Shown here in pieces: positions 464-21,721 of a DNA stretch of 47,466 nt (position 1 is its first letter; each line of letters begins with the position of its first letter). This stretch comes from Mesorhizobium zhangyense. Its GTDB lineage: Bacteria; Pseudomonadota; Alphaproteobacteria; Rhizobiales; Rhizobiaceae. The translations under genes were made by a program, and so were the position numbers. Under the pieces are notes generated by a model. The model saw only the letters and a program-made list of their open reading frames with translations, was not told the origin of the DNA and made no database searches. Location: contig NZ_JAAKZG010000024.1 of the NCBI RefSeq assembly GCF_011045115.1, positions 1 through 47,466 of the forward strand, written 5' to 3'.

Positions 464-1300
464 TCACACCATGCAGCTCTTGGCTTTCATCCATGCCGGC
501 GGCTCACCATGGAATCCGCCGACGAGCGCGTTGCGGCAATTGCAGCTGCGTTCGGTCGACAGCGCCGAGATTGCCTCAATCAAGGTCTTTTCGATGAGAT
601 CGTGCAGGCCTTGCTTGTAGTAGATCTCGTTCATGCTGCCGGGACCGAAATGAACGACTGCCGGCGCCATTCCGGCGCCGAAATTGATGACCGGCGCGAT
701 AGACGCGAAACACATTTCGGCCTCCCGCGCGAAGATGACTTCCGGAATGAGCGGCGTACCGACGATATCGCCGCCTTCGCGCTGATAGGCGCGGATTTCG
801 GCCGGCGTTTCGAAACGCGGCCCTTCGGTGCAGACGAATGTGCCGCGCTCGATGACCCGGTTGCTGAACTTGTTTGCAGCTGCGATCAGTTCAGTGCGCA
901 GGCGCGGACAGAAAGGATCCGTGAAATCGACACGTACCCAGCATTCGCTTTCATCGAACAGTGATTGCGCGCGGGACTTCGTCTTGTCGAGAAAATCGTC
1001 GGAAATGACTATGTCTCCCGGCCGGATTGCGGGATTGACCGAGCCGATGGCGTTCTGCGAGACGATGGATTCCACGCCGAGTTCACGCAAGGCCCAGATG
1101 TTGGCGTGGTAGTTGATCTTGTGGCTGGGAAGCGTGAGCTTTTCGCCATAGCGCAGAATCACGACGACCTCGCGGCCACCTATAGTGCCCGTCAGGACAG
1201 GTGCGTTGCCCCATGGTGTCGATACGGTCTCGGCTCGACGGTCCTTGAGCAGTTCTTCAGAGGCCGCACTGGTAATCAGGCCAACAGGCGCTTCACGCAT
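464..1300 (-). CDS. 5'-methylthioadenosine/purine nucleoside phosphorylase family protein, probably 6-oxopurine specific
   Basis: A 278-residue member of the MTAP/PNP phosphorylase family, which splits the N-glycosidic bond of purine nucleosides with phosphate. Visible family motifs are LPSHKINYHANIWALRELGV (58-77), NAIGSV (83-88), CTEGPRFET (157-165) and the IPEVIFAREAE helix (185-195). The MTAP base-binding TDYD motif is replaced by INFGAG with Asn206. In this superfamily Asn at that place goes with 6-oxopurines (inosine type) and Asp with adenine. The N-terminus is short and lacks an obvious glycine-rich GGSG loop. Its ATG overlaps the stop of the deaminase-like gene by 8 bases (1293-1300), so it is the last gene of the operon and coupled to a deaminase. 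Inferred role: phosphorolysis of the deaminated nucleoside, as in methylthioinosine phosphorylase. Confidence 0.82.
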   Translation of the reverse strand: MREAPVGLITSAASEELLKDRRAETVSTPWGNAPVLTGTIGGREVVVILRYGEKLTLPSHKINYHANIWALRELGVESIVSQNAIGSVNPAIRPGDIVISDDFLDKTKSRAQSLFDESECWVRVDFTDPFCPRLRTELIAAANKFSNRVIERGTFVCTEGPRFETPAEIRAYQREGGDIVGTPLIPEVIFAREAEMCFASIAPVINFGAGMAPAVVHFGPGSMNEIYYKQGLHDLIEKTLIEAISALSTERSCNCRNALVGGFHGEPPAWMKAKSCMV

Positions 1301-2618
1301 CGGACGTTTCCTTATTCATTTCAGATGTTTGATAGTGTTTGTGGATTGCGCTTCGGATTTCGGCTTCATCGATCATCGAGAAACACCCGCCTTCGAAGAT
1401 GGTCCGTCCTGCGATCATGACGCTGTGCACATGCTGCGGGCCGGCGTGATAGACGATGTCGGAAAGCACCCGCTCCGCCGTAAGACCAAGGGGGTGGTCA
1501 AGCGAAAGCACAACGAGATCCGCCTCCTTGCCCGCTTCCAGGCTGCCGATTTCGGCCTCCCATCCAAGCACGCGCGCGCCTTCGATAGTGGCCATGGTGA
1601 AGGCATCGGACGCCCCCATGATCATGCCGTCGAGCGACGCGGCACGCTGGAGCAGTACTGAAAGCTTCATTTCCTGAAAGAGGTCGAGGCAGTTGTTGGA
1701 CAGCGTACTGTCCGTGCCGAGCCCAACCGGGATGCCACCTCGTCTCAAAGCGGGAACCGGGGCAATGCCGCTGGCAAGCTTGGCGTTGCTAGCCGGATTA
1801 TGCGCAACGCCGGCGCCCGTATCGGCGAGAATATCGACGTCTTTTTCGTCGAGCCAAACGCAGTGGGCAAGGATCGATCGGCGGTCCAGAACACCGAGTT
1901 CGGCGAGCCAGGCCAGCGGCGATTTTCCATACTGCGCAAGGATCATCTCGTTTTCGCGGCGGTTCTCCGCGACATGGAGGACGAAATGCAAGCCGAGCGC
2001 GTCGGCTTCGCGCTTCACCTCGGTCAGAAGCTGCGGCGTGCAGCTATAAGGGGAATGGCCGCCGAGATAGAACCGGCACAAGCCGTTGCCTTGGTAGACC
2101 TGGATGGCCTCCTTCGTTTCATCAAGCGCGAGTGGCCAGTTGGGGCGGCCGTTAGGCCGCAATTCTGGAGAATTAGCCAGCGCTCCACTGAGCGATCGCA
2201 TGCCGATTTCGCTGGCGACGGATGCAAAGACTCCCGCTCCATAGCGTGTGCAGTCGCAGGCGGTGGTGATGCCGTTGCGCACCATCTCCATGACAGCCAG
2301 CGTGCACCCGGCCCGGTTGTCCTCGATCGTCAGCGACGCGGTATGCGGCGCAAGCGCGGAAGCCCATTGGAAGAGATCGCCATCGTCGCAGCAACCGCGA
2401 TGCATGGAGAGGCCGCCATGCGCATGCGTGTTGATGAGGCCCGGAATGACAACCCGTCCGCCGAGGTCCTTCCGCTTGGTGGTCGCAGCTTGAGGTGGCA
2501 GCGTGGAAAGGGAGCCGACCCACGCAATCTTCGTGCCCTCGATCAGGACAGCACCGTTCTCGATGAAGCCGCCGGCCAGCCCGGTACAGACGAATGCATT
2601 GTGAAGGAGCGTTGGCAA
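1293..2618 (-). CDS. amidohydrolase, MTA/S-adenosylhomocysteine deaminase-like (TRZ/ATZ family)
   Basis: A 441-residue metal-dependent deaminase. Metal ligands are visible as HAH (65, 67), His215 in HVAENRREN, His252 in LAHCVWL and Asp303 in GLGTDS. The HSPYSC segment (188-193), the AHNPASNAKLASGIAPV block and the LFQEMKLSVLLQ helix match MTA/SAH deaminases closely, so a 6-aminopurine nucleoside is the likely substrate. The start is a TTG at 2618 with a GGAGG six bases upstream, one base past the TGA of the metallo-hydrolase gene. The 3' end overlaps the phosphorylase start by 8 bases. Deaminase then phosphorylase in this order mirrors the two-step conversion of methylthioadenosine via methylthioinosine known in Pseudomonas. 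The exact nucleoside is inference. Confidence 0.85.
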   Translation of the reverse strand: MPTLLHNAFVCTGLAGGFIENGAVLIEGTKIAWVGSLSTLPPQAATTKRKDLGGRVVIPGLINTHAHGGLSMHRGCCDDGDLFQWASALAPHTASLTIEDNRAGCTLAVMEMVRNGITTACDCTRYGAGVFASVASEIGMRSLSGALANSPELRPNGRPNWPLALDETKEAIQVYQGNGLCRFYLGGHSPYSCTPQLLTEVKREADALGLHFVLHVAENRRENEMILAQYGKSPLAWLAELGVLDRRSILAHCVWLDEKDVDILADTGAGVAHNPASNAKLASGIAPVPALRRGGIPVGLGTDSTLSNNCLDLFQEMKLSVLLQRAASLDGMIMGASDAFTMATIEGARVLGWEAEIGSLEAGKEADLVVLSLDHPLGLTAERVLSDIVYHAGPQHVHSVMIAGRTIFEGGCFSMIDEAEIRSAIHKHYQTSEMNKETSDA

Positions 2619-2619
2619 A

Positions 2620-3336
2620 TCAGACCTCCATCACGAAGGACCGGTCTTCCAGCGAAAGGCTGATGACCTCCGAAAGCGCACCAGCGCTCGCCACCTTGCC
2701 ATTCGCGATCGTCAGGCTGGCGTCGTGGCCGGGAACGACAATATCGGCCATGGCCGCAATGCGCCGGATGCTTTCGCGCGCGGATATGTTGTCGAAGGCA
2801 CCGGCCGAGTTCAGCGTCTCGATTTCGCCGCGATGCTTCACGGCGTCCTGCGCAAGGACGACACATTTCCCGTCGACAGACAGGACGAGAGAGGCATGCC
2901 CGCCGGTGTGGCCGGGCGTTCGGATCATGCGAATGCCGGGCAGCACATCGAGTTCGCCCGAAACGAGCGAAAGCTGCGGGCTGCGCAGGAGGCCCTCGAC
3001 CTGGAACAGCGGAATGGCGCGATCGTCTGCCTTGTGTTCGTCGAAATAGGCAAGCTCGGTTTCATGCAGGACCAGTTCGGCCTTGGGGAAACATTCCACG
3101 TTGGCGACGTGGTCGAAGTGGAGATGTGAAAGTACCACCGTGCGAATATCGGCCGGCGTCAGGCCGCGGCGTTCGAGCGCGTTCAGAATGCCGGGGCGAT
3201 CGCCCGCGCCGCCTGTATCGAACAACGCGTAGCCGTCTCTCGTATGGAGCAGCACCGTGGTGCTCCAACCAAGGAAACCACGCGGCGTACGCCCGGGAAA
3301 GCCGGGGATGAGTACGTCATAGCTGGGCGCCGTCAT
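2620..3336 (-). CDS. metallo-beta-lactamase-fold hydrolase
   Basis: A 238-residue protein with the HxHxDH zinc motif SHLHFDH (71-76), the later PGHTGGH motif, and the Asp of VLAQDAV, in the arrangement of AHL-lactonase/glyoxalase-II-like enzymes. No signal peptide is seen, so it is cytoplasmic. The open frame extends far upstream, but the ATG at 3336 overlaps the permease stop as TGATG, which decides the start. It sits between the ABC permeases and the deaminase. A carboxyl- or phosphoester, lactone or thioester bond in the imported compound is a possible target, but the fold alone does not tell the substrate. Confidence 0.85.
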   Translation of the reverse strand: MTAPSYDVLIPGFPGRTPRGFLGWSTTVLLHTRDGYALFDTGGAGDRPGILNALERRGLTPADIRTVVLSHLHFDHVANVECFPKAELVLHETELAYFDEHKADDRAIPLFQVEGLLRSPQLSLVSGELDVLPGIRMIRTPGHTGGHASLVLSVDGKCVVLAQDAVKHRGEIETLNSAGAFDNISARESIRRIAAMADIVVPGHDASLTIANGKVASAGALSEVISLSLEDRSFVMEV

Positions 3337-4190
3337 CAGGATTCCACCTGTCTCAGGCGCGGGTCGAGCAGATCGCGCAGCCGGTCGCCGACAAGGTTGA
3401 TGCCGACCACGGTGAAGAAGATCGCGAAGCCGGGCACGGTCGCCACCCACCAGGCGTTGCCGATATAATTGCGCCCTTCGGCGATCATCGTGCCCCAGGT
3501 CGGCGTTTCCGGCGGAACGCCGAGGCCGAGGAAGCTCAGGGAAGATTCGAATAGGATCATCTTGGCGACGAGCAGGCTCGAAATCACGATCACCGACGAC
3601 ATGACGTTCGGCAGCAAATGACGGATGAGGATCATCGGCACCGAAATGCCCATCGTCTGCGCTGCCTGAATGAATTCGCGTTCGCGCAGCACGAGACATT
3701 CGGCGCGAACGACGCGTGCGTATTGCACCCAGTTGGTCAGGCCGAGGATGGCAATGATGTTCCAGAGGCTCGGACCGACGACAGCGGCCATCGCGAGTGC
3801 CAGCACCAGAAACGGAATGGCAAGCTGAATATCGGTGATGGCCATGAGAATGCGGCCAGCATAGCGGTCCTCATATCCGGCAACCAGGCCGAGCGTGACG
3901 CCGATGGCGCCCGAGATGACGACCGAAGCGACACCGACGAGCAGCGAAACGCGAGCACCCGCGATCAGGCGGCTGAAGATATCGCGGCCGAGTGCATCGG
4001 TTCCGAGAAGATGCATCCCCTCCTCTCCCCGCCAGAACGGTGGCTTCAGGCGCTGGAGAATGTCCTGTGCATCGGGATCGAAAGGCATGAGCCAGTGACC
4101 GAACAGGGAGGCGAACACAACGATCAGCACCAGCGCAAGTCCGAAGACGGCAAGGCGGCTGTCGAGATAGCGTTTGATAAACGGGTTCAT
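3336..4190 (-). CDS. ABC transporter permease, DppC/OppC type
   Basis: A 284-residue inner-membrane permease of the dipeptide/oligopeptide/nickel class. It has about six hydrophobic segments, an N-terminal NPFIKRYLDSRLAVFGLAL start typical of DppC, the GTDALGRDIFSRLIAGARVSL block (63-83 region), and the EAA-type loop REFIQAAQTMGISVPMIL that contacts the ATPase. It ends with the LVGDRLRDLLDPRLRQ tail usual in this family. Its ATG overlaps the stop of the DppB-like gene by four bases (ATGA), and its own stop overlaps the next gene. With the binding protein and the fused ATPase encoded nearby it completes one importer. Confidence 0.93.
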   Translation of the reverse strand: MNPFIKRYLDSRLAVFGLALVLIVVFASLFGHWLMPFDPDAQDILQRLKPPFWRGEEGMHLLGTDALGRDIFSRLIAGARVSLLVGVASVVISGAIGVTLGLVAGYEDRYAGRILMAITDIQLAIPFLVLALAMAAVVGPSLWNIIAILGLTNWVQYARVVRAECLVLREREFIQAAQTMGISVPMILIRHLLPNVMSSVIVISSLLVAKMILFESSLSFLGLGVPPETPTWGTMIAEGRNYIGNAWWVATVPGFAIFFTVVGINLVGDRLRDLLDPRLRQVES

Positions 4191-5107
4191 CGGCCCTTCC
4201 TCAAACGCGGGTCGAGCAGCCCGTAGGACAGGTCGACGAGGAGATTGACCGTAACGATGGTGACGGCCATGACGAGCACGAATGCCTGAACCACCGTGAA
4301 ATCGCGATTGGCAATGGCCTGGATGGCGAGCCTGCCGATGCCGGGATAGGCAAAGACTTCTTCGGTGATGACGGCGCCGCCAAGCAGCGCGCCCACCTGC
4401 AGCCCGATAACCGTCAAGGTCGGGATCGCGGCATTGCGAAGCGCGTGCTTGAAGATGATGCGCCCCTCGCTGACGCCCTTGCCGCGCGCGGTGCGGATAT
4501 AGTCGGACTGCAGGACCTCGATCATAGAGGAACGCAGCAGCCGCGTGATGATTGCGGTCGAATAGGTGGCAAGCACGATAGCCGGCATGATGAGGTTTTG
4601 CCAGCCGCCCTTGCCTGAGGCCGGCAGCATGTGAAGCGTCTCGGAAAACAGCAGGATCAGCATGATCGCCAACCAGAAAGCCGGAAAGCTCTGGCCGATC
4701 AGCGAGATGAGAAGGCTGACCCGGTCGACGATCGATCCGCGCCAGGCAGCGGCCAGGATGGCGAGCGGAATGGAAATGGCGAGAGCCAGGGCGAGCGCCA
4801 TGCCGCTCAGTTGGAGGGTGGCCGGCACACGCTCCAGGACGAGCTGCATGGCCGGCTGCTCATAACGCAGCGACATACCGAAATCGCCCTGCACGGCTCG
4901 GGAGACGAAATCGAAATACTGCACGACGAGCGGCCGGTCGAAGCCCATGAGATGGCGGAAGCGCGCGATCTCTTCCATGGAGGCTTCCGGCGGCAGGAAA
5001 AGTGCGGACGGATCACCGCCGATCCGGATCAGGAAGAACACAGCAAGCGACACGCCGAAAACGACAGCCATCGCATAGAGTACTCGCGATATGAGGAATG
5101 AGGACAA
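4187..5107 (-). CDS. ABC transporter permease, DppB/OppB type
   Basis: A 306-residue inner-membrane permease of the peptide/nickel class. The N-terminal transmembrane helix is followed by the periplasmic RFRHLMGFDRPLVVQYFDF region, and the GKGVSEGRIIFKHALRNA segment is the ATPase-contact loop. It ends with the LLDPRLRKG tail. The start is a TTG at 5107; no better upstream codon is in frame and the protein begins exactly where DppB homologues do. It lies 74 bases after the binding-protein gene, separated by a strong hairpin, and overlaps the DppC-like gene by four bases. Confidence 0.92.
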   Translation of the reverse strand: MSSFLISRVLYAMAVVFGVSLAVFFLIRIGGDPSALFLPPEASMEEIARFRHLMGFDRPLVVQYFDFVSRAVQGDFGMSLRYEQPAMQLVLERVPATLQLSGMALALALAISIPLAILAAAWRGSIVDRVSLLISLIGQSFPAFWLAIMLILLFSETLHMLPASGKGGWQNLIMPAIVLATYSTAIITRLLRSSMIEVLQSDYIRTARGKGVSEGRIIFKHALRNAAIPTLTVIGLQVGALLGGAVITEEVFAYPGIGRLAIQAIANRDFTVVQAFVLVMAVTIVTVNLLVDLSYGLLDPRLRKGR

Positions 5108-5144
5108 AGGCCTGGCCGCTCCATGGGCGAAGTCGTTTCAAGTT

Positions 5145-5170
5145 CCGTGGCCGGAGAATTCCGGCCACGG
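5145..5170. other. strong intercistronic hairpin between binding-protein and permease genes
   Basis: A perfect 11-base-pair stem (5145-5155 with 5160-5170) with a GAAT loop. It has no T-run on the transcribed minus strand. Hairpins at this place in importer operons commonly protect the upstream binding-protein mRNA from 3' decay or attenuate readthrough, giving more binding protein than permease. That role is inferred from position. Confidence 0.7.
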
Positions 5171-5181
5171 ATGATCGAAGA

Positions 5182-6702
5182 TCAGTCGAAGCTTGCCTTG
5201 CGCAGATCGATCATGCTGTCGGTGCGCGGCTTCCAGTTCAGCTTGGCATTGAGGCCGTAGATCAGCGGCGGCTGTATCATCGGCAAATGCGGCGCTTCGT
5301 CCTTGATGATGGCGGCTGCCTTTTCATAGATCGCCTTGCGCTCCGCCGGGTCGATCGTCGCGGCACCCTCGTCCAGAAGCTTGTCGAGCTCGGCATTGCT
5401 GAAATAGCTCTGGTACTGCCCTGTCTTCAGCAGAGGCAGCCAGACAAGATTGGGATCGCGCCCGCTCCATCCGGGGAAAGTGATGCCTTCGCGGCCCTTC
5501 TTCTCGGATATCTGGCCCCAGACGCCCGGCTCCAGATACTGGATTTCCGCCTTGATGCCGACCTTGCGGAGGAAGCCGGCCGTCGCTTCGACGATCTCGC
5601 TGTCCTTCAGGAAACGGCCTTTCCGGGTCATCAGGGGAATCGAAAAGCCATCCGGATATCCCGCTTCCGCAAGCAGTTCTTTTGCCTTTGCGGGATCATA
5701 GGGATAGGGTTTCCAGTCTGGATTGTAGGCAAATCCATTCGAAGGAAGGGTGAGCGCGATGCGATTGCCCATGCCATTGAGCAGCGCCTCCTGAATGGCA
5801 TCGACATTGACGGCGTAGTTGATTGCCTGGCGCACGCGTTTGTCCTTCAAGGGCGTGTCGCGCGTCGTATCGAAGGCGAGGAAATAGAGGAAATCGCTGG
5901 CCACCGTTTCGATCTTGGTGCCGTCCGCCTGGAGCGAGGATACGTCTTCAGGCGGGATATCGACCGCGATGTCGGCGCCGCCACTCTTCAATTCCGCAAT
6001 GCGCGTGCGGGTTTCCTTGATCGGCCGGAAAACGACGCGGTCGATCTTCGGCGTGCCGCCCCAGTAATCCGGATTGGCTTCAAGAACGACTTCTTCGTCC
6101 TTCAGCCATTTGACGAATTTGTAAGGCCCGGTTCCGACCGGCGCCGACCCCAGCGCCTCACCGTTCTTTTCCTGCGTGTATTTCGGCGGAACGATCAGGG
6201 CAGGAAACGATGCCTCGTAAAGTGACAGCAGCATCGTCGGGAACGGTTTCTCGGTCTTGAGATCGACGGTGTATTCGTCGACGATCTCGACCGACTTTAT
6301 GGCCGAGATGCGGGAATAATAGGGAGCCTTGAAATTCGGGTCGAGCGCGCGGTCGAAGGTGAATTTCACCGCTTCGGCATTGAAGGGCTCCCCGTTGTGA
6401 AACTTGACGCCTTCGCGCAGCTTGAAGCGCCAGGTCAGAGGGTCCGGATTGCTCCATGACGTTGCCAGCCCCGCGACGAGTTCGCCCTTCTCGTCCATGG
6501 TTATGAGCCCGTCATATATCTGGAACAAGATGTTCGCTGTCGGGAAGGCCGAGTGCTTCGCCGGATCCATTGAGTAGGCATCGGCAGGCTGGGCGACGAC
6601 AAGCGTGCCCGCTTCTCCGGCCGCAGCAAATAAAGGCAGATTGCACGCGACCGTCGTGGCCAGGGCGGCAATCAGGAAGCTTCTTCCAAGCATATGTTTC
6701 AT
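5182..6702 (-). CDS. ABC transporter periplasmic substrate-binding protein, family 5 (DppA-like)
   Basis: A 506-residue solute-binding protein of the peptide/nickel family. Residues 1 to about 28 form a Sec signal peptide (positively charged start, hydrophobic core, cleavage near LFAAAGEA). The mature start VVAQPADAYSMDPAKHSAFPT and the WRFKLREGVKFHNGEPFNAEAV block are family signatures. Members bind peptides, nickel-chelates, opines, glycosides or nucleopeptides, so family alone does not give the ligand. The ATG has an AAGGGTG ribosome site. It is the third gene of the operon, after the GHL6-like gene, and its partners are the two permeases downstream and the fused ATPase at 11493. Confidence 0.92.
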   Translation of the reverse strand: MKHMLGRSFLIAALATTVACNLPLFAAAGEAGTLVVAQPADAYSMDPAKHSAFPTANILFQIYDGLITMDEKGELVAGLATSWSNPDPLTWRFKLREGVKFHNGEPFNAEAVKFTFDRALDPNFKAPYYSRISAIKSVEIVDEYTVDLKTEKPFPTMLLSLYEASFPALIVPPKYTQEKNGEALGSAPVGTGPYKFVKWLKDEEVVLEANPDYWGGTPKIDRVVFRPIKETRTRIAELKSGGADIAVDIPPEDVSSLQADGTKIETVASDFLYFLAFDTTRDTPLKDKRVRQAINYAVNVDAIQEALLNGMGNRIALTLPSNGFAYNPDWKPYPYDPAKAKELLAEAGYPDGFSIPLMTRKGRFLKDSEIVEATAGFLRKVGIKAEIQYLEPGVWGQISEKKGREGITFPGWSGRDPNLVWLPLLKTGQYQSYFSNAELDKLLDEGAATIDPAERKAIYEKAAAIIKDEAPHLPMIQPPLIYGLNAKLNWKPRTDSMIDLRKASFD

Positions 6703-6745
6703 AAGTTCACCCTTTTTGTGCCCTCTGGGAGGACTTTTTATGTTG

Positions 6746-6768
6746 CGGCGACGCGGTCTGTGTCGCCG
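6746..6768. other. hairpin upstream of the binding-protein gene
   Basis: A seven-base-pair stem (CGGCGAC at 6746-6752, GTCGCCG at 6762-6768) in the 87-base spacer between the GHL6-like gene and the binding-protein gene. It could modulate readthrough inside the operon. A separate promoter for the binding protein is also possible in this spacer; nothing decisive is seen. Confidence 0.45.
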
Positions 6769-6789
6769 TAGTTGCTGATCCGTCCGATG

Positions 6790-8856
6790 TCACGTCTTCC
6801 TCCCGCTCTCGCCTCTTGAAAGGGCGATGGCAGCAAAACTATCCAGGCGGTCAAGCTGCACGGTCAGATGTCTTTCCGTTTTCGAAACCTGTAGTGTTTT
6901 GCCGGTTTGAAGGTCCGTGGCGCTGTCTGCGTCGGTTTCCACGACGATCTCGAAGCCAGCCAATGGAGTGGTTTCCATCAACCCTTTCGTTCGGGTCGCC
7001 GCGCCGTTCAGCGCATGCAGAACCATGCCGTCGGGACGCCCGTAAAGAATGAGATCGACAGCCGAGGATGCCGTCGTGCGCAGCGGCGGAGAGCCGATCA
7101 CCGTTTCGAGCAGCACGCCAACTAGTTGCCGATACTCAGGCATGGAGAACCGGTGATAAAGCGAGCCGATGCGCCATGGTAGCCACACGACCCTGCCCTG
7201 ACCGTACTGTTCCTCAATCAATCCGGGCTCCGCGCCGGGACCCTCGACAAGCGTGAATTCCGGCGCATTGTTGGAGAAAGGGCCGATCAGCCTGAGATCA
7301 TCGTTGGCATTTCCTCGCTCCGGAAACGGAATCCAAAAATCTCCCGCCGCAGCGATATGCGGGATGCCGCCGAATGCGCTCCGCAATGCCTGGCCGGACA
7401 GCGCAAAATAAGCGCCATTCACGTTGCGAATTTCTCCGGGAAGACGCGGCAGGCAGGAAAGCGGCGGCGAGCCACGTTCGCGTCCGTTCTCATCGCATCT
7501 GGCCAGATCCGCGCTGGCGATCAGCCTGCCGCCACTGCGCACATAGGTATCGATCGCGCGGACATCGGAATCCGAGAGGCAATGAACTGCCGGCAGCAGG
7601 ATGGCATCGTATCGCTGAAGGTCGGCAACCGAAAGATCGCCAGCCACGACGATGTCACAGGGGTAGCGAAGATCGGCAGCGATTTCGAAGAGCCCGCGAA
7701 ATTCCGCGACATGCCCGCAGCCATCCGGCGCACCGGCAGGCCGGCCCGCGTCAGGCCCCCAGAGCCTGCTGGCTTCGGATTTGACGATCGCCATGCGTGC
7801 GGTGGAGTGAAGGCCCTCATACCACGTCGCCTGTTTTGCCTGATAGCCTCCGAACTGCTCCAATGCCGGAACGAAACGAGGATCGTCCTGCTGGAGCAGG
7901 CCGTTCACGGCCGGGGCGGTATTCGCGCCATGCGCTGCCGCTTGAACCAGATTCTGGATAAGGCGGGCGTCGGGCATCGCCGTCTGGCGGCTGGCAAAGA
8001 CTTCGGAGGTGGTCTGGATGAGGATCGGCGCGCTTCCCGGCTTCAGCGCGCGCGCTGTCAGCGCCTCTTCCGCCGCCCAATGGTTCCAGGCCGGTTGAGG
8101 GTCGACGGGATTGGGGATGACCGGATTGGAAACCTGCGATCCTATGATGTCGCTGACTTCCGCCATGCGGCGAATGTTCCAGCCGTCATGGACATGATGG
8201 TAGGGCACCAGTGCCGCTTCCGGATTCCGTTCGCGAATGAAATCGCGAACATGGCCCATATAGTCCGCCAGGAAATCCTGCCGCCACGTCTCGTAGGCCG
8301 CGGAGCGCACGCCTTCCGTCGGAACCGCCTCGCCTATCGCCTCGAGAACTGCCGAAGCACAGCGCGCGCAGTGGCATCGCGGCACGTGCAGATAGTTGAA
8401 GAAGAAACCGTCGAGCGTCGGATAGCCGGTCAGGATTTCGTCCAGGATCGCGAATGTCTCCTGCTGCCAGAATGGACCGGTCGCGCAAATCTGTGGCATG
8501 GCCCAGACGGTGCTGACGCTTCCATCCTCCCGGCGCACGAACCAGTCCGGATACTTCCTCTCCATGCCTTCCCGGCCCTTGGAGATATCCATCCGCACCA
8601 GCGTGCGAATGCCTTCTTCCTTGGTGGCGTCCAGAAACGCACCAAGAAAATCGAAGGTCAGATGCGGGTTGATGGTCTGCGAGGAGAGCTTGGTTGGATA
8701 CCAGGCAGAGAACCCGCCACCCATGGCAATACAGGCTCCCGCACCGACGCTTTTGATTTCCGCGATCAATTGCCCGACGTCGAGCCCGGAAGCATCGGCC
8801 TCGCGCAACAGATGCTGAAAGAACCGGATCGGCTGGCGCGTCCATTCTAGTGGCAT
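6790..8856 (-). CDS. glycoside-hydrolase-like protein (GHL6 domain with beta-galactosidase-trimerization-like domain)
   Basis: A 688-residue protein without a signal peptide. The N-terminal half looks like the hypothetical glycosyl hydrolase family GHL6, a TIM barrel: ISKGREGMERKYPDWFVRRE after a FLGAFLDATKEEGIRTLVRMD strand, then a cysteine-rich HVPRCHCARC stretch following the DGFFFNYL strand. The second half has the class-I-amidotransferase-like fold of beta-galactosidase trimerization domains (RYDAILLPAVHCLSDSDV, YVRSGGRLIASADL). The open frame reaches 8979, but the ATG at 8856 has a GGGGG ribosome site and overlaps the upstream stop by 10 bases. No activity is proven for the family. In this operon a role in removing a glycosyl group from the imported compound is reasonable inference. 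Confidence 0.75.
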   Translation of the reverse strand: MPLEWTRQPIRFFQHLLREADASGLDVGQLIAEIKSVGAGACIAMGGGFSAWYPTKLSSQTINPHLTFDFLGAFLDATKEEGIRTLVRMDISKGREGMERKYPDWFVRREDGSVSTVWAMPQICATGPFWQQETFAILDEILTGYPTLDGFFFNYLHVPRCHCARCASAVLEAIGEAVPTEGVRSAAYETWRQDFLADYMGHVRDFIRERNPEAALVPYHHVHDGWNIRRMAEVSDIIGSQVSNPVIPNPVDPQPAWNHWAAEEALTARALKPGSAPILIQTTSEVFASRQTAMPDARLIQNLVQAAAHGANTAPAVNGLLQQDDPRFVPALEQFGGYQAKQATWYEGLHSTARMAIVKSEASRLWGPDAGRPAGAPDGCGHVAEFRGLFEIAADLRYPCDIVVAGDLSVADLQRYDAILLPAVHCLSDSDVRAIDTYVRSGGRLIASADLARCDENGRERGSPPLSCLPRLPGEIRNVNGAYFALSGQALRSAFGGIPHIAAAGDFWIPFPERGNANDDLRLIGPFSNNAPEFTLVEGPGAEPGLIEEQYGQGRVVWLPWRIGSLYHRFSMPEYRQLVGVLLETVIGSPPLRTTASSAVDLILYGRPDGMVLHALNGAATRTKGLMETTPLAGFEIVVETDADSATDLQTGKTLQVSKTERHLTVQLDRLDSFAAIALSRGESGRKT

Positions 8857-10328
8857 GAGCAGCCCCCAGTGAGGCGCGCCCGCATGCGCCGTATCGGCAT
8901 TTCCAGCGCATTCGTCGCCGCATAGGCGCTTTGGTTGTCGCGCTGGCGCCGCTCCGACAATTCTTGGGCTTCTTCCCAAAGGCTGGCTTCATCGACGTCA
9001 ACGGCATGGCCATCCCTAACCACGATCCGTCCGGCAATCACGACGAGTGCGATGGCTGACCCAGTTTCGGCCAGCACAAGCTGACGGACAGGATCGTTGA
9101 GTGGCGCGAAAGCAGGCGAAGCGATGCGGAACAACGTCATGTCCGCCACATGGCCGACCGCGATCTTACCGGCCATCCTACCCAACCCAAGCACGTCCGC
9201 GCCGCCAGAGGTCGCCAACGAAAGGGCCCGCTGTGGGCTTGTCCAATCACGCTCGTTTTGCGAATGCGAATTGTGCAGGATGGCGGCCCATTTGACCGTC
9301 TCGAGAAGATTATTACCGTCATTGCAGCATGCGCTGTCCGTCCCGAGACCAACACGGACACCGGCGCGCAGCAATTTCGGCAAAGGACAAAAGCCGCTTC
9401 CGAGCCGCGCGTTGGACACCGGGTTATGAATAACGCTGGCGCCGGAATGGGCAATCGTCTCTGCGTCTCCATCTTCGAGCCAGATCGAATGAACGAGATT
9501 CGTGCGCGGTGTAAGAACACCAAGCTCATCGAGGTGGTCGATCATGCCACGGCCGTAAAGCCGAAATCCCGTCTCGCGCTGGATGCTGGTTTCCAGCACA
9601 TGTGTGTGCAGGAGTGTGTCGTTGCGTGCACTGAAATCGGCCGCTGCCGTCAGCAGTTCGTCCGAGCAGCGCTGCGGTCCCGAAGGGCCGATCGCAGCCC
9701 GGATGCGACCGTCCGCGCTTCCGTGCCAACGGCGAAAGAAGGCTTCCGCAACCTGCATCTGTCTGCGCCAGGGCATAGGACGGCGACGGCCGTAAGCGGA
9801 AAGATCGATGTCGCGAATATCCTCTGCCTCCAGAGGCATGGTTTCCAAGACCGCGCGATCGGAGACAACCGGCGCGATGGTCGCGCGCATGCCGCTGTCG
9901 CGCCAAGCCTGCGCGACAGCGGCAAGTGCATCGGCTTCGATATCGGGCGAGATACGCACATGGTCGAGGACGCTTGTCGTGCCCGTCCGCATCATCTCGA
10001 CGGCGCCGAGCAGGGCTGAAACGTAGATCTCGCGCGGCGTGCGGCTTTCACGTCCCGCAGACGATGAAAGCGACCAAAGTTCAAGCGGAAGGTCGCCTGC
10101 CGTTCCGCGAATCAGATTATCGGGGGAATGGCTATGGCAATTGACGAAACCCGGCGCTGCGATGAGGCCCGAGGCGTCGATGATCTCGCAGTCGTTCGCG
10201 ATCGAAGCATTAGGCTCGTGCAAACCGTCGATCACGCCGTTCCTGATTTCGATGGAGTGCCGCTGCGCTGCCCATCCGTCTTCGGCTTCGATCAGGCAAA
10301 GCGCATTGTTGAACCAGATGGCTGTCAC
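8847..10328 (-). CDS. amidohydrolase of the TRZ/ATZ/cytosine deaminase-like family
   Basis: A 493-residue metal-dependent hydrolase, first gene of the minus-strand operon. Metal-binding motifs are HSH (65, 67) in GFVNCHSHSPDNLIRG, the HTHVLET segment, LVHSIWLEDGD and GLGTDSACCNDGNN. It shares the fold with the second amidohydrolase of the operon but is clearly a different subgroup, longer at the C-terminus, with the SIQRETGF segment in place of ENRREN. It probably deaminates or dechlorinates a ring, or opens a cyclic amide; substrate unknown. The start is GTG at 10328 with a GGAA-type ribosome site. Two amidohydrolases in one operon imply two sequential C-N hydrolyses or two related substrates. 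Confidence 0.82.
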   Translation of the reverse strand: MTAIWFNNALCLIEAEDGWAAQRHSIEIRNGVIDGLHEPNASIANDCEIIDASGLIAAPGFVNCHSHSPDNLIRGTAGDLPLELWSLSSSAGRESRTPREIYVSALLGAVEMMRTGTTSVLDHVRISPDIEADALAAVAQAWRDSGMRATIAPVVSDRAVLETMPLEAEDIRDIDLSAYGRRRPMPWRRQMQVAEAFFRRWHGSADGRIRAAIGPSGPQRCSDELLTAAADFSARNDTLLHTHVLETSIQRETGFRLYGRGMIDHLDELGVLTPRTNLVHSIWLEDGDAETIAHSGASVIHNPVSNARLGSGFCPLPKLLRAGVRVGLGTDSACCNDGNNLLETVKWAAILHNSHSQNERDWTSPQRALSLATSGGADVLGLGRMAGKIAVGHVADMTLFRIASPAFAPLNDPVRQLVLAETGSAIALVVIAGRIVVRDGHAVDVDEASLWEEAQELSERRQRDNQSAYAATNALEMPIRRMRARLTGGCSCH

Positions 10329-10507
10329 GCCGTTTCCATTCCTTCATGTTCCCGGGCCGGTTCCGGCTCCTTTTCTTTTTCTTTTCGTAAAGGGAGAGGA
10401 AGATGAATATGGCATTTTGGAAAAAATCATTTTCCCAATCGGCGCGCCCTATGCCTCACAAGGGGGCTGGACGGCACGACAATTGCTGTATGGTAGCTGA
10501 AAAGTGG

Positions 10508-10551
10508 CTGATAGCCGGCAAAACCCTGATCTTTGTTCGGTTGGCTATCAG
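10508..10551. promoter_or_regulatory. inverted repeat in the divergent promoter region, possible LysR-type operator
   Basis: CTGATAGCC at 10508-10516 is exactly complementary to GGCTATCAG at 10543-10551, with 26 bases between. It lies between the divergent operon start (10328) and the LysR gene, 36 bases before the TTG proposed as its start. LysR regulators often bind interrupted dyads in such divergent regions; the spacing here is longer than the usual T-N11-A box, so this is only a candidate. Confidence 0.35.
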
Positions 10552-10586
10552 ACTGCTCAAATAATAATTGGGAACACTATCCAGCG

Positions 10587-11474
10587 TTGAATAAATTTCA
10601 GGACATATTGGCATTCGTCCGCGTTGCGGAGCTTGGCAGTTTCACCGCCGCAGCTCGCACGCTGAGCTTCTCGACCTCCGCCGTGACGAAAAGCGTCACA
10701 CGGCTGGAAGAGGATCTGGGCGCGCAGCTGATGCATCGCACCACGCGGCGCATGCACCTGACTGAATATGGTTCGGAGTTCTACGAGCGCTGCCGGCAAA
10801 TCCTCCAGGACATGGACGACGCAGAAGCTGCGGTGCGCGAGCGCAGCATCGCCCCGAGCGGGCTGGTGCGCATCGCACTGCCGCCGTCCTTTGGCCGGCG
10901 AACCGTCATCCCGGCGCTGGCGGGTTTCTACAAGCGCTATCCAGACGTGGTTCTCGAGCTGTGCCTGAAGCATCAGACGGCCAATCCGATCGAGGGCGGT
11001 TACGACCTCGTCGTTCACTCCGGCCGGCTGGCGGATTCGCGTCTCATCAACCGCATCCTCGTGCGCGGCACGCAAAAGACGGTGGCGTCTCCCGCCTATC
11101 TCGAACAGCATGGGCGTCCTGAAACGCCTGCCGATCTTCTCGCACACAACTGCATCGTCGGTGGGTTCGGCGCGAACTGGCACTTCAAGGGTGAAGGCAG
11201 CGACGATCAGGTCGTCCGCGTCTCGGGCAGCCTCGTTACCGACAGCGGCGACATCCTGCGCGAAGCGGCCGTTGCCGGCATCGGTATTTCGCAAGCGACC
11301 TGGTGGATATTCCGCGACGATCTTGAAAGCGGGGCATTGGTGACGCTGCTCGACGACTACGAGATCGAAGCGGACCCGATATCCATCGTTTTTCCCGCCC
11401 ATCGCCGCACGCCGGTCAAGGTGCGCGCGGTCGTGGATTTTCTTCTGCAGATAACCCGAAGCAACCGATTCTGA
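10587..11474 (+). CDS. LysR family transcriptional regulator
   Basis: A 295-residue regulator. The winged helix-turn-helix is at the N-terminus (FVRVAELGSFTAAARTLSFS, then KSVTRLEEDLGAQLMHRTTR), and the C-terminal half is the periplasmic-binding-protein-like effector domain. The frame is open from 10533, but LysR proteins of this type begin at the residue before NKFQDILAFV, which is a TTG at 10587; the longer form would also run through the inverted repeat. It is divergent from the nucleoside-type operon and 18 bases before the fused ATPase gene, so it likely controls both units in response to the imported compound. Confidence 0.88.
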   Translation: MNKFQDILAFVRVAELGSFTAAARTLSFSTSAVTKSVTRLEEDLGAQLMHRTTRRMHLTEYGSEFYERCRQILQDMDDAEAAVRERSIAPSGLVRIALPPSFGRRTVIPALAGFYKRYPDVVLELCLKHQTANPIEGGYDLVVHSGRLADSRLINRILVRGTQKTVASPAYLEQHGRPETPADLLAHNCIVGGFGANWHFKGEGSDDQVVRVSGSLVTDSGDILREAAVAGIGISQATWWIFRDDLESGALVTLLDDYEIEADPISIVFPAHRRTPVKVRAVVDFLLQITRSNRF

Positions 11475-11492
11475 TCGTCGAAGGATGACCAA

Positions 11493-13337
11493 ATGACCGT
11501 AGCCGCAGCCGCCAGATCTGTTCTGGATACCGCCTCTCCTGTCCTGTCGGTTTCCAATCTGACGACATCCTTCAGGATCGACGGCGAATGGCGCCCGGTG
11601 GTCAAAAATGTATCGTTCGAAATTGCCCCGAGGGAGACACTGGCGATCGTCGGCGAGTCTGGCTCGGGAAAAAGCGTGACCTCCCTTTCCATCATGCAGC
11701 TCCTGCCCAAACACGCGAGCCGCATCGAGGGCTCGATCGTTCTCGGGGGAACAGACCTTGTGAAGCTCACGGATCGGCAGATGCGCGATGTGCGTGGGCG
11801 CGACGTGGCGATGATTTTCCAGGAGCCGATGACCAGCCTCAACCCGATCTTCTCGGTCGGAAACCAGATCGCGGAGTCGCTTCTGTGCCACAACCGTTCG
11901 CTGTCTCATGCCGATGCCAAAACAGAGGCGCTTCGGCTGATGGACAAGGTACAGATTGCGTCCGCCGCTTCGCGCTACAATGAGTATCCCCATCAATTCT
12001 CCGGGGGAATGCGCCAGCGCGTGATGATCGCGATGGCGCTTGCGAGCCGCCCCAGGCTTCTCATCGCCGACGAGCCGACGACAGCACTCGACGTCACCAT
12101 CCAGGGGCAGGTCCTGGACTTGATGAAGACGCTGCAGGACGAGGAGGACATGTCCGTTCTCTTCATCACGCACGACATGGGCGTGGTAGCCGAGATGGCC
12201 GACAGGACCGTGGTGATGTATCGCGGTGAAAATATCGAGTCCGGCACGACGGCGAAAATCTTCAAGGATGCTGCTCATCCCTACGCCCGGGCGCTGCTTT
12301 CCTCCGTGCCAAAACTTGGCGCGATGGCGGGCCATATGCGGCCGTTGCGTTTCCCGATCGTCGATATGGCAACCGGTGAAGCAAGACCTGTCCCGCAGCC
12401 GGCGAATACCGTTTCGGCTGAAAAGCGCCCGGTTCTGGAGGTGCGCAATCTCTCTTCGCGTTTCGATGTCCATGCCGGGCCGTTCGGAACGCTTTCCGGC
12501 CGGGTCCATGCGGTAGAAAATGTATCCTTCACTATCCAGCCAGGCGAAACCCTGTCGCTGGTCGGCGAATCGGGTTGCGGCAAATCCACGACCGGACGCT
12601 CCATCATGCGGCTGCTGCAACCGTCGTCCGGCTCGATCATTGTCGATGGAAAAGACATAATCTCGCTTGACCGGCATGAACTCCGCGACATGAGACGCAG
12701 CGTGCAGATGATCTTCCAGGACCCGTTCGCCAGCCTCAATCCGCGCATGCGCATAGGCGACGCTATCGCCGAACCCTATCTCGCGCATAGGCTCGGCACG
12801 AAGCGGGAAGCCAGGGAAAAGGTCGCGGACCTGCTGCGCCGGGTCGGCTTGACCGAGGATATGGCCGAGCGCTTTCCACACGAGTTTTCCGGCGGCCAGC
12901 GCCAGCGCATCTGCATAGCACGCGCATTGGCTCTCGACCCGAAACTGATCGTTGCCGATGAGTCCGTCTCGGCGCTCGATGTCTCGATCAAGGCGCAGGT
13001 GATCAACCTGCTGCTCGATCTTCAGGAAAGCCTTCATCTGTCATTTCTGTTCATCTCGCATGACATGGCGGTGGTGGAGCGTGTCAGCCACCGTGTGGCT
13101 GTCATGTATCTTGGCGAAATCGTCGAGATCGGACCACGGTCTTCGGTGTTCGAAAATCCGCAACATCCGTATACCGAGAAGCTGATCGCCGCGGTGCCTG
13201 TTCCCGACCCATCAAGGCGTCACATTCGCCGCGAACTGCCGGCATCCGAATTGCGCTCACCGGTGCGCTCGGTCGACTACATGCCGACACCACGAAAGTA
13301 CCGTGAAGTCTCGCCGGGACATCTGGTTCAGGTTTGA
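11493..13337 (+). CDS. fused dipeptide-type ABC transporter ATPase (DppD-DppF in one chain)
   Basis: A 614-residue protein with two complete nucleotide-binding domains. The first has Walker A GESGSGKS (54-61), the [15 protein letters not shown] signature and the [12 protein letters not shown] Walker B. The second has GESGCGKS (about 357-364), [15 protein letters not shown] and [11 protein letters not shown]. After each domain there is the oligopeptide-type C-terminal extension ([24 protein letters not shown]). The start has an AAGGATGACCAA ribosome site. It powers the permeases encoded at 3336-5107, on the opposite strand and separated from them by the rest of the operon; this split arrangement with the regulator is uncommon. 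No other ATPase gene for this importer is in the window. Confidence 0.94.
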
Positions 13338-14346
13338 GGTAAAAGCTTCATACTGCTCCGTGTCTTGACGGCCCGCCCCAGTTCGAACCCAATCCTGGCC
13401 GCGCCGCGGCTATCGACCCTCTCAGGAATACCAGTCGTTCAGATTGCGTTTCGAACTCACTGAGTGACAGCAACAGAGCACACCCGGAGACGACGGAACG
13501 CCACCTAGCCTTCTGGCACAACTTCTTCATGCGCGGACGTACGGGCAATGTCTGCTTCCAGGCGGACGTAAAGTTCACCACCATGACCGCCATTGGGCGC
13601 AAAGCGACCATTCGCTGCATGAAAGACATCGCCTTTGGTTCAGCGCCTCCGTTTCGGCTGCTTGATCGTTACCGTCCTTGTATGCGCGCCAATCTCACGC
13701 CGGGGCGGCCGGCGGCACGAGAGGTTTGAACGCAAAACGCCGCCCTGATGGTTAGATCGGGACGGCGATTGATTTATGCTGGACTTGGTTGTGGGGGCTG
13801 GCAACCACCGATACCGACATTTGCTCCAGACAGCCGTATAATACGCGATAGTTCCAGATTTCTCCGGATTGCACGCTCGCAAAGGGCCTACAGACTTACA
13901 GCAATTCGAATCCGTTTCGGCCCACCAAAACCGCTGATTGCCCTCCATAGCGGGCAATCGTCGATTGCCACTTGAATTACATTGCGTAGAGAACGGGAGA
14001 TAGCCCATGTGTAGAAAGGCGTAGAGGCCTCGTCGTCGACGGTCGACAGTTGGTTTTGACTCTACGTCACGTATGGGGCTTTGAATATCAGCTATGCGCC
14101 CAATCTCGGTCATTGAGGGCGCGCATGACGTTTCCTGATAGCGGACATAGCGGCGACTACACGTGCGGTTGCGATTGCGCCAGAAACGAGCATCGATTTA
14201 GGGGAGGCGAACTACCGATTGAATTTCAAAGTGGTCAAGGGGCAATAGCGTCCGGGGAGGTCCCCAGCATACGCAACTGCGACTTCAGAATGGTCGCCAA
14301 TAATGTCTGCTCAACCTGCTGGCGGCCTCGGGACAAAAATCATTGC
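13338..14346. other. 1-kb stretch without a recognisable gene
   Basis: No open frame here looks like a protein, on either strand. At 13884-13927 there is a tRNA-like 3' end (TTCGAATC T-loop, 3' ACCA at 13924-13927, and a GGGCC/GGCCC acceptor-like pairing) with no room for the D and anticodon arms, which could be a remnant left by an integration or deletion. The sequence at 13531-13620 has the look of dispersed intergenic repeats of rhizobia, but this cannot be tested here. The stretch separates the ABC system from the sugar-acid pathway. Confidence 0.4.
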
Positions 14347-15516
14347 TTACGCTGTCTGGTAGAACGGCACTGAAGCGGCAGGACGTATGTTGGTCAGGCT
14401 GCCATTGTAGTGGCGCAGCAGATACGGTTTGGGCGGGTACTCGGCGCAAGCGTCTTCATTGATATCGATGCCCAGACCCGGCGCTGTTGGAATGACCATA
14501 TGCCCGTCCCTGATGACGACATGCTCGCGCACGATCTCGGAGCGCCATGACACGTCTGACACCATGGTTTCGAGCCAGGCAAAGTTGGGCGTAGAGGCGG
14601 CAACGTGCAGCGTCATGGCATTGGCGATCGGTCCCAACGGGTTATGCGGGCAGATCGGCAGATATTGGGCGTGGGCAATTGCGGCGATGCGCCTGGCCTC
14701 GGCAAGACCACCAACATGGCTGACGTCGGGTTGCACATAGTCGACGGCGTGCGCCGCAATCAGCTCCTGGAAGCGCTGGATTTCGTAGTAACGCTCCCCG
14801 GCGGCAATAGGCACGGGTGACTTGGAGCGAACGTCGGCGAGTGCCGGTATGGATTCGGGTGGGATTGGCTCCTCAAACCAGTAGGGGCGGAACGGAGCCA
14901 GATCCTTGGCGACAGAGATAGCTGTCGAGACATCGAACCGTCCGTGACCTTCGATCATAAGTTCCACATCGGGGCCAACGGCATCGCGGACCGCCTCCAC
15001 TATGCCGATCGCGCGCATTCGCTCGGTCCGCTCCAGACGCAGGTAGTTTTGACCGAATGGATCCCATTTGAGGGCGCGCCAACCCTGGGCGACGATATTG
15101 CGCGCTTTTTCGGCGAAGTCTTCGGCGGTGCGTGCGCCGGCAAACCAGGCATTGCCGTACACCGGTACGCGGTCTCGCTGCTTGCCGCCGAGCAGTTCGT
15201 AAACCGGCACGCCAAGGGACTTGCCCTTGAGATCGAGCAGGGCAGCCTCGATGGCGGCGATGGCGCTGCGGATCACCACGCCGGTGCGCCAATAGCTGTC
15301 GCGGCTGAGCAGTTCGACGATCGCATCAGTAGCGAATGGGTCGCGTCCGAGAAGCAGGGGCTCGAATTCACCGATTGCATGCGCGACGGCTTGTTCGCGA
15401 TGTTCGACGGTGCCTTCGCCGACGCCGTATGTGCCATCGTCGGTAATGATCTTCACGAAGACATAGTTGGCGCGATAGGCGTCAACGACGAAGGTTTTGA
15501 CCGTCTCGATCTTCAT
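14347..15516 (-). CDS. mandelate racemase/muconate lactonizing enzyme family sugar-acid dehydratase, DgoD (galactonate dehydratase)-like
   Basis: A 389-residue enolase-superfamily enzyme. The residue pattern matches D-galactonate dehydratase with a constant offset of six: metal ligands Glu189 (IEGHGRFD), Glu215 (WFEEPIPP) and Glu241 (AGERYY), and catalytic histidines His191 and His291 (CPHNPLGP). The first ligand is Glu, where DgoD has Asp183, so the substrate may be a related aldonate or a branched or deoxy sugar acid. The QPDVSHVGG block is also conserved. It would convert an aldonate to a 2-keto-3-deoxy acid. The ATG at 15516 overlaps the GntR stop (ATGA); the longer frame to 15570 is spurious. 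It is cotranscribed with its regulator. Confidence 0.88.
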   Translation of the reverse strand: MKIETVKTFVVDAYRANYVFVKIITDDGTYGVGEGTVEHREQAVAHAIGEFEPLLLGRDPFATDAIVELLSRDSYWRTGVVIRSAIAAIEAALLDLKGKSLGVPVYELLGGKQRDRVPVYGNAWFAGARTAEDFAEKARNIVAQGWRALKWDPFGQNYLRLERTERMRAIGIVEAVRDAVGPDVELMIEGHGRFDVSTAISVAKDLAPFRPYWFEEPIPPESIPALADVRSKSPVPIAAGERYYEIQRFQELIAAHAVDYVQPDVSHVGGLAEARRIAAIAHAQYLPICPHNPLGPIANAMTLHVAASTPNFAWLETMVSDVSWRSEIVREHVVIRDGHMVIPTAPGLGIDINEDACAEYPPKPYLLRHYNGSLTNIRPAASVPFYQTA

Positions 15517-16193
15517 TGAAACTCTGCTTTTTTCATTTGCTGGACGAGATCGCGACAGGCGCTCTCGCAATGGGCCCGTGTGATCGCCACGGCGTCGGCG
15601 ATCGAGCGGCGTTCGATGGCGTTAACCAGAGCCGTGTGCTCCTCGCGGATGGTCACGATGCGGTCGTCGCCGAAACCAAAGCGGAAGCGCAGCGCCAGCA
15701 CCAGTTCCCAGCCCTGTTCGAGAATGCGAAGCGCCTCGGGATTGTCTGCGGCAGTGTTGATGGTGCGGTGCAGACGGGCGTTGGAAGCCAGCATCGCCTG
15801 CACGTTGCCTGCGTTGCTCGCCGTTTCATAGTCCACTGCGGCGGTTCGGATGGCGTCGATATCGTCAGCATCCAGGCGTTCGACCGCAGCCGAGACCAGC
15901 ATCTGCTCGAGCGCTGAACGGATGTCGTACATATTTCGTACGAAGCGGATATCGACTCCACGCACCACCGCGCCCTTATGCGCATGCAGTTCCACCAGGC
16001 CTTCGCCAGCCAATTCGCGCACCGCCTCCCTGATCGGGATGGCGCTGATCTCGTATCGATCGGTCAGTTCCTGCAGCTTTATGCGCGAACCGGGGGGCAA
16101 CACGCCGACGAGAATATCCAGCCGTATGGAGGCCTTCACCCGCGCGGTGGTGGTTTCCGACATGGATGCTTTTCGGTCGTCAAGATTGGGCAT
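15513..16193 (-). CDS. GntR family transcriptional regulator with FCD ligand domain
   Basis: A 226-residue regulator. The N-terminal winged helix has LDILVGVLPPGSRIKLQELT and IPIREAVRELAGEGLVELHA; the C-terminal helical FCD domain includes RNMYDIRSALEQMLV and the metal-binding type histidine LHRTIN. FCD members sense sugar acids and similar carboxylates. A second ATG at 16163 is possible. It is transcribed with the dehydratase and divergently from the TRAP operon. The intergenic region carries two copies of a TGATCAAATATA box, with a third before the lactonase gene, which are the likely operators of this protein. Confidence 0.9.
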   Translation of the reverse strand: MPNLDDRKASMSETTTARVKASIRLDILVGVLPPGSRIKLQELTDRYEISAIPIREAVRELAGEGLVELHAHKGAVVRGVDIRFVRNMYDIRSALEQMLVSAAVERLDADDIDAIRTAAVDYETASNAGNVQAMLASNARLHRTINTAADNPEALRILEQGWELVLALRFRFGFGDDRIVTIREEHTALVNAIERRSIADAVAITRAHCESACRDLVQQMKKAEFQ

Positions 16194-16254
16194 CGATTAC
16201 TCCGCAGCGGCGGGACAGGACAAATGGCGACGATCCGTGACCTAACACGCCAAT

Positions 16255-16272
16255 AAAATCTGATCAAATATA
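16255..16272. promoter_or_regulatory. putative GntR operator, copy 1
   Basis: TGATCAAATATA at 16261-16272; the right arm is identical to the perfect palindrome at 21722-21739, while the left arm is degenerate (three of six matches). It lies in the divergent region between the GntR and TRAP genes, 27 bases from copy 2. Confidence 0.6.
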
Positions 16273-16281
16273 TTCTGACTT

Positions 16282-21712: not shown

Positions 21713-21721
21713 CAACTCTTA

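Follow-up and report, generated by a model that had tools for sequence, protein, structure and literature searches.

The entire contig C17 of Mesorhizobium zhangyense (NZ_JAAKZG010000024.1), which is the window analyzed here and comprises 47,466 bases of a 6.36-Mb genome in 64 contigs, carries a cassette of eight tightly spaced minus-strand genes opposite a divergent LysR gene and a fused ATPase gene. From the make-up of 18 related loci, the core of this cassette is the amidohydrolase AH1 together with a protein of the purine nucleoside phosphorylase (PNP) family, here termed PNP-like, and the importer and trimming genes around this pair vary. Judged by its active-site residues, the cassette is best read as an altered form of deaminase/PNP-family salvage. 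We tentatively propose that it serves the uptake and deamination of a sugar-modified purine nucleoside and the phosphate-independent release of its base, followed by the hydrolysis of a lactone or ester. A little more doubtful is the wider suggestion that this is an undescribed catabolic system of scattered alpha- and betaproteobacteria, in which an N-glycosidase with the fold of methylthioadenosine (MTA) phosphorylase (MTAP) would act independently of phosphate, or by some other reaction, on a natural sugar-modified purine nucleoside that bacteria encounter but that is not known to be tied to catabolic genes. Among the titles and abstract starts listed from the open literature, none describes the cassette, which is weak evidence of absence, as the subscription literature lies largely outside that survey.

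The cassette recurs in relatives, which are scattered among bacteria of soil and water. A GTDB scan with the PNP-like alignment, in which loci (L numbers) were located through two short peptide patterns and members may therefore be missed, returned 64 loci, comprising 20 clade members with 68 to 91% identity (L069 to L087 and L132) and 44 others with 39% or less. The closest relatives found are those of Aminobacter (91%) and of Xaviernesmea and Neorhizobium (88%). The PNP-like gene is full length in 18 of the 20 clade loci (L069 to L086), and AH1 lies directly upstream of it in all 18. The binding protein, DppB, DppC, and GHL6 genes are found together in 12 of these (L069 to L079 and L086), which belong to Aminobacter, Xaviernesmea, Neorhizobium (two species), Rhizobium (two), Corticibacterium, Devosia, Aureimonas, Variovorax, a Beijerinckiaceae metagenome-assembled genome (MAG), and Oceaniovalibus. 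Among the 12, the gene for a metallo-beta-lactamase (MBL)-fold hydrolase is present in 10 (not in L078 or L079) and that for the second amidohydrolase, AH2, in 9, with a tenth in Corticibacterium (L075) seen on a longer stretch (L051); in L076 and L079, the examined DNA starts inside the GHL6 gene, short of the AH2 position. Cassette ATPases are present in six of the 12 (fused in L074 and as two genes in L075 to L079), the Aminobacter ATPase is fused on a longer stretch (L050), and in the remaining importer-bearing loci the examined DNA ends within the LysR gene, before the place of the ATPase. A LysR ortholog (64 to 89% identity) faces AH2 in 7 of the 18 loci (L069 to L074 and L086), a count to be read with the examined DNA of several other loci stopping short of the LysR place, and also in Corticibacterium (L051). 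On a plasmid of Neorhizobium galegae VafX2 (L043), all eight genes occur in unchanged order, again with a divergent LysR gene; in the 32 kb examined there, the fused ATPase has no close ortholog. The AH2 (17270 to 18759) and LysR (19006 to 19888) genes of this plasmid match in more than one frame, possibly reflecting broken genes or sequencing errors. The first-pass annotation of the window had postulated a dedicated, conserved unit with its own importer, and this was borne out; absence of the neighborhood from relatives, the check set beforehand, was looked for, and conservation was found instead.

In the other six loci (L080 to L085), all from betaproteobacterial MAGs, the AH1-PNP-like pair stands beside a TctC-type binding protein (six of six; Pfam assignment on the L081 copy), and no Dpp permease, Dpp binding protein, GHL6, AH2, or MBL gene was detected in the examined DNA, which is shorter than 8 kb in L083 and L084. 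The gene for a PcaD-type hydrolase follows in three of them (L081, L082, and L083), and Variovorax L078, which lacks the MBL gene, has one too. The L081 protein (264.8 bits) exceeds the PcaD cut-off of 255.85 bits, and the L078 protein (237.8 bits) falls just under it. An additional FAD-dependent oxidoreductase gene lies within the operon in L075, L076, and L079 (Pfam assignment on the Corticibacterium copy). The linkage of AH1 and PNP-like exceeds chance, because AH1 is upstream in 18 of 18 loci and the pairwise identities of the two proteins are correlated (r = 0.87 over 19 loci). The corresponding correlations with GHL6 over 13 loci are 0.73 for PNP-like and 0.85 for AH1, and in each of the three comparisons none of 2,000 permutations was as high; the correlations partly reflect shared species history. 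Both families are isolated, with next relatives that are about 33 to 43% identical. Across 297 genomes sampled from the family, AH1 scores 637 bits in one genome (G372) besides that of the window, the next match being 220 bits and 35% identity, and among 398 sampled proteobacterial genomes, only the window's own passes an E value of 1e-75. In the same 398 genomes, PNP-like scores 630 bits with itself and at best 159 bits (37% identity) elsewhere. In a tree of 67 rows, in which some long branches outside the clade are unsure, the clade has support of 100/100, and its stem measures 3.63 changes per column.

A Rhizobiaceae MAG (L087, 10001 to 10354) and Microvirga lupini (L132, 10001 to 10160) carry pieces of a PNP-like gene without AH1, as if the cassette had been lost, and apart from generic ATPase or LysR matches, no other cassette gene was found in these two loci. 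In the Beijerinckiaceae MAG (L079), two MmgE/PrpD-family genes with an open reading frame between them follow the PNP-like gene (11029 to 14817). Plasmid pShin-03 of Shinella sp. HZN7 (L049) encodes an MBL homolog of 62% identity (2967 to 3665) that has another Dpp importer, a remote GHL6 relative, and an MR_MLE gene nearby, and AH1 and the PNP-like gene are unmatched in the 26 kb examined.

The PNP-like protein scores under every NCBIfam cut-off listed, including those of MTA phosphorylase (TIGR01694, 211.1 bits versus 274.85) and methylthioinosine (MTI) phosphorylase (NF006599, 190.5 bits versus 223). Its AlphaFold model (pLDDT of 87.3) has the MTAP fold, the nearest solved folds being MTAPs (Foldseek E value of 7e-29 and TM of 0.85 to 1v4n); residues 211 to 221, which have low confidence in the model, are probably part of an active-site loop. 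As given in extracts of PMC5147791, the solved Schistosoma MTAP contacts phosphate (sulphate) through S12, R54, H55, A88, N205, and T207 and the base through D230 and D232. At the aligned phosphate contacts, the clade reads A12, R50, Y51, A84, G181, and P183, and N206 and G208 replace the adenine-binding Asp pair. Three contacts are thereby lost, Ser to Ala (A12), His to Tyr (Y51), and Thr to Pro (P183), and these replacements are invariant in the 19 clade rows, versus 93% Ser, 100% His, and 98% Thr in 44 MTAP rows; G181 is not counted as a loss, being common in other bacterial MTAP rows. Comparison of the 19 clade rows with the 44 MTAP rows gives 39 columns with the same conserved residue and 24 in which each group conserves a different one, the latter including S11, A12, A13, Y51, R123, E164, T182, P183, N206, and G208. 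This count left out L002 (the window again), the partial rows L087, L104, L126, L131, and L132, the second L107 row, and L001, L064, and L067, excluded as divergent or as annotated otherwise than MTAP. At the base site, F163, E164, and N206 are kept in the PNP pattern, with E164 and N206 matching both the canonical PNP of the genome (L001) and an annotated MTI phosphorylase (L064). At the three positions lost in the clade, L064 retains a hydroxyl, His, and Thr, and L001 retains Ser at two, the His column being a gap. R123 replaces the neighbor-subunit histidine of MTAP (H131) and could face a negative charge close to the 5' position.

By these residues, the base site appears to fit a 6-oxopurine, with the sugar and phosphate sites changed, and the protein is probably not an ordinary phosphorylase, because three of the six phosphate contacts of MTAP are replaced invariantly in the clade. 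A shift to hydrolysis is plausible by analogy, since cleavage of adenosine without phosphate is tabulated for the wild-type Schistosoma MTAP in the extracts of PMC5147791. The first-pass annotation had placed a deaminase-type gene beside a PNP-family gene, which agrees with a base site of the 6-oxopurine type; its further step, phosphorolysis, is put in doubt by the invariant loss of half of the solved MTAP's six phosphate contacts. A nucleosidase working by the MTAN route was considered and set aside; E15, the alignment match of the catalytic Glu of MTAN, is replaced by D, P, Q, or G in part of the clade.

AH1 is probably an aminopurine deaminase. Its closest solved relative is the MTA/S-adenosylhomocysteine (SAH) deaminase 4f0r, it scores 302 bits against NF005557 (MTA/SAH or 5'-deoxyadenosine deaminase; cut-off of 522), and guanine deaminases score well below MTA/SAH deaminase. 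The metal ligands and catalytic Glu are conserved (H65, H67, H215, E218, H252, and D303), and AH1 retains the histidine of the HSPYSC motif, which is typical of adenosine-type deaminases. The position of the Glu that binds the ribose diol (E84 of TM0936) is Thr, Ala, or Ser in AH1 (T93/A94 in the window protein) and Glu in 8 of 12 compared relatives (L135 to L142). SAH is not favored as a substrate; the position of the second carboxylate-binding Arg of TM0936 is Ala in AH1 by an alignment made by eye.

A purine nucleoside with a modified sugar would be the simplest joint reading, because both linked enzymes keep purine-type base features and have changed the recognition of ribose (AH1) or of ribose and phosphate (PNP-like). 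Adenosine-5'-carboxylate and deoxy- or arabino-adenosines would be example candidates. Salvage of MTA itself was rejected as the main role of the cassette, and MTA is unlikely as the substrate, as the genome encodes its own MTA/SAH nucleosidase and canonical PNP, the sugar-side residues have changed in both enzymes, and the phosphate site differs.

Other reactions were weighed against this proposal. If AH1 deaminated a free base that PNP-like had already released from a guanine-type nucleoside, the missing ribose-side Glu of AH1 would be accounted for, and E164 and N206 would, as in human PNP, suit guanine as well; such an order is improbable given the HSPYSC histidine, typical of adenosine-type deaminases, and the nearness of AH1 to MTA/SAH deaminase rather than to the much lower-scoring guanine deaminases. 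We also think it unlikely that both enzymes were recruited for a different N-heterocycle and a different chemistry, such as ring or amide hydrolysis, since the base-site residues F163, E164, and N206 adhere to the PNP pattern, even though the 24 fixed differences from MTAP, the very long stem branch (3.63), the changes in both the sugar and phosphate sites, and the varied clusters of AH2-type relatives would suit such a recruitment. Ordinary deamination followed by true phosphorolysis of an imported nucleoside has a precedent in the MTA deaminase and MTI phosphorolysis route of Pseudomonas aeruginosa (extract of PMC6302742), and the fold, the base-site residues, and the remaining R50 and A84 match phosphorylases. 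With fixed replacements at three phosphate ligands across the clade, scores under the MTAP and MTI phosphorylase cut-offs, and an MTA/SAH nucleosidase and canonical PNP elsewhere in the genome, this route has a low probability.

Several observations nonetheless weigh against phosphate-independent cleavage of a sugar-modified nucleoside followed by lactone hydrolysis. Because the phosphate site retains R50 and A84, and N83 corresponds to N87 of the Schistosoma MTAP, a weak or altered use of phosphate is possible, and no water-activating group was identified in PNP-like. Not every change is unique to the clade: L066 also has Gly at 208, and in L067, a divergent protein of Deinococcus that falls outside the clade, Ser replaces the His and the base positions read Asn/Gly, with both Thr positions kept. 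The ribose-side Glu is likewise missing from the other 4 of the 12 compared relatives (L060 to L063, AH2 type), and AH1 might act on a free base. Neither an MBL nor a PcaD-type enzyme was found in the examined DNA of L079, L080, L084, and L085, and these two enzymes need not perform the same step.

The accessory genes would supply the remaining steps. The importer is complete for the Dpp/Opp type, with a family 5 binding protein, two permeases, and two ATPase domains; the fused ATPase has a GsiA-like match of 803 bits, under the cut-off, and the solved relatives of the binding protein include named binders of peptide, heme, nickel, and agrocinopine, among others. The best NCBIfam matches of the MBL protein are the acyl-homoserine lactone (AHL) lactonase AiiA and 4-pyridoxolactonase, at best with 75.8 of the 375 bits required, and its metal ligands, HxHxDH plus H, D, and H, are invariant in five of five sequences (H74, H76, D78, H79, H146, D167, and H207, in a numbering of P0003 that includes 3 residues ahead of Met). 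Two unrelated lactonase-type enzymes, MBL and PcaD type, occur in alternative cassettes, and lactonase-type enzymes and a sugar-acid product fit together.

The AH2 motif GPSGPQRC resembles the PSAPQRC of the L060, L062, and L063 proteins; AH2 lacks the His of the HxPY motif and has a Glu at the ribose-side position by a pairwise alignment that is unsure. Relatives with PSxPQRC are found in three other, varied clusters: in Sinorhizobium meliloti beside a nucleoside hydrolase and a BMP-type binding protein, in Rhizobium johnstonii beside RidA and a racemase, and in Paraburkholderia beside histidine-type genes. The GHL6 protein has its Pfam domain at 58.4 bits (cut-off of 35), its profile matches the GH151 fucosidase 6tvk (E value of 1e-11), and its model matches 6tvk along the whole length (TM of 0.77/0.80). 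The catalytic residues of GH151 are D154 and E235 according to the extract of the review PMC10154630. At the position of the nucleophile Asp154, all clade members with DNA over this site have Asn154, and the position of the acid/base Glu235 reads Q or S in a distant alignment and appears to be lost as well, less surely than the nucleophile; the offset of 29 between the 6tvk chain and protein numbering is inferred. Other aligned GHL6 homologs (L006 to L057) also have Asn at the nucleophile position, except L026, which has Asp. The canonical GH151 mechanism is therefore unlikely for this branch, which may have another activity altogether. GHL6 had been taken at first pass as a sign of a glycosylated substrate, a view that finds no support, given the Asn and the six AH1-PNP-like loci in which no GHL6 gene lies in the examined DNA (short for some of these loci). 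GHL6 was also discarded as proof of a glycoside because several relatives with 24 to 28% identity lie near sugar-acid genes or Dpp importers instead.

In the proposed pathway, the Dpp-type importer would take up a purine nucleoside-like compound with a sugar other than plain ribose, and AH2 and the GHL6 protein would trim it. AH1 would strip the 6-amino group to give a 6-oxopurine, which PNP-like, as a putative nucleosidase derived from a phosphorylase, would bind and release from the sugar without phosphate, most likely with water. The MBL hydrolase, or the PcaD-type enzyme in some other hosts, would then act on the sugar-derived product, opening a lactone or ester. The order of these steps and the substrate class are our inference, and they build on the observed gene content, linkage, isolation, and active-site residues.

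The minus-strand genes are transcribed in the order AH2, GHL6, binding protein, DppB, DppC, MBL, AH1, and PNP-like (Table 1), and neighbors overlap by up to 10 bases or stand up to 87 bases apart, a spacing consistent with one operon. AH2 and GHL6 overlap by 10 bases, DppB and DppC by 4, and DppC and MBL in TGATG; AH1 starts with TTG and overlaps PNP-like by exactly 8 bases, as the first-pass annotation had reported, and every gene that it had named is in place. The GHL6 start is most likely at 8856 rather than in the long frame reaching 8979. PNP-like, the last gene of the operon, ends 463 bases from the contig end, where visibility stops.

Table 1. Features of the cassette in the window
Feature	Position	Strand	Evidence
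PNP-like protein, MTAP/PNP fold, phosphate site partly lost	464..1300	-	PF01048, 120.8 bits
AH1, COG0402-type amidohydrolase, probable aminopurine deaminase	1293..2618	-	PF01979, 213.9 bits
MBL-fold hydrolase, lactonase-like	2620..3336	-	PF00753, 68.2 bits
DppC-type permease	3336..4190	-	Pfam and NCBIfam profile matches
DppB-type permease	4187..5107	-	Pfam and NCBIfam profile matches
Family 5 extracellular solute-binding protein	5182..6702	-	PF00496, 331 bits
GHL6 protein, GH151-like fold without the GH151 nucleophile	6790..8856	-	PF14871 and PF08532
AH2, amidohydrolase, PSxPQRC subgroup	8847..10328	-	PF01979, 180 bits
Intergenic stretch between divergent units, presumed control region	10329..10532	.	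Position
LysR-type regulator, start codon unsure	about 10533..11474	+	PF03466 and PF00126
Fused DppD-DppF ATPase of the importer	11493..13337	+	Two ABC domains

Outside the conserved cassette, the window contains a sugar-acid cluster (14347 to 21715) with genes for a galactonate-dehydratase-like MR_MLE protein, a GntR/FCD regulator, a TRAP transporter (DctP and DctM), an SDR, and aldose epimerase-like and SMP-30 lactonase-like proteins. Toward the other contig end, genes for cytochrome oxidase subunits II and I and topoisomerase IB are found (40165 to 43718 and 45867 to 47015).

Relatives of these proteins are routinely annotated as MTA phosphorylase, amidohydrolase, or beta-galactosidase trimerisation protein, and the phosphorylase and glycosidase names are likely misleading for the clade because the reaction-defining residues have changed invariantly across it. 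If the proposal is true, PNP-like would be an example of a phosphorylase family member that gave up phosphate, and the substrate, once found, would add a nucleoside-type compound to the natural nutrients known for plant- and water-associated bacteria. The minimal unit of AH1 and PNP-like makes the proposal testable with two proteins.

Among known systems, aminodeoxyfutalosine deaminase and futalosine hydrolase, of the menaquinone route, resemble the cassette in combining an amidohydrolase with a hydrolytic PNP-family enzyme. Futalosine hydrolases belong to another PNP subfamily, whereas the PNP-like candidate is of the MTAP subfamily and lies in a catabolic-looking cassette with an importer. 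Futalosine is mentioned in the extract of PMC6302742. The GHL6 protein is like the GH151 alpha-L-fucosidases (6tvk) in whole-length fold and domain order and differs in its Asn at the nucleophile D154 and, less surely, in the apparent loss of the acid/base residue. The MBL protein shares its metal-site residues with the MBL enzymes AHL lactonase and 4-pyridoxolactonase and scores far under their family cut-offs. With the route of P. aeruginosa through MTA deaminase and MTI phosphorylase, the cassette shares an amidohydrolase of the MTA/SAH deaminase group adjoining, in the pathway, a PNP-family enzyme that has a 6-oxopurine site, and it differs from that route in the partly lost phosphate site, the missing ribose-side Glu of AH1, the scores under the family cut-offs, and the linked importer, GHL6, and lactonase-like genes.

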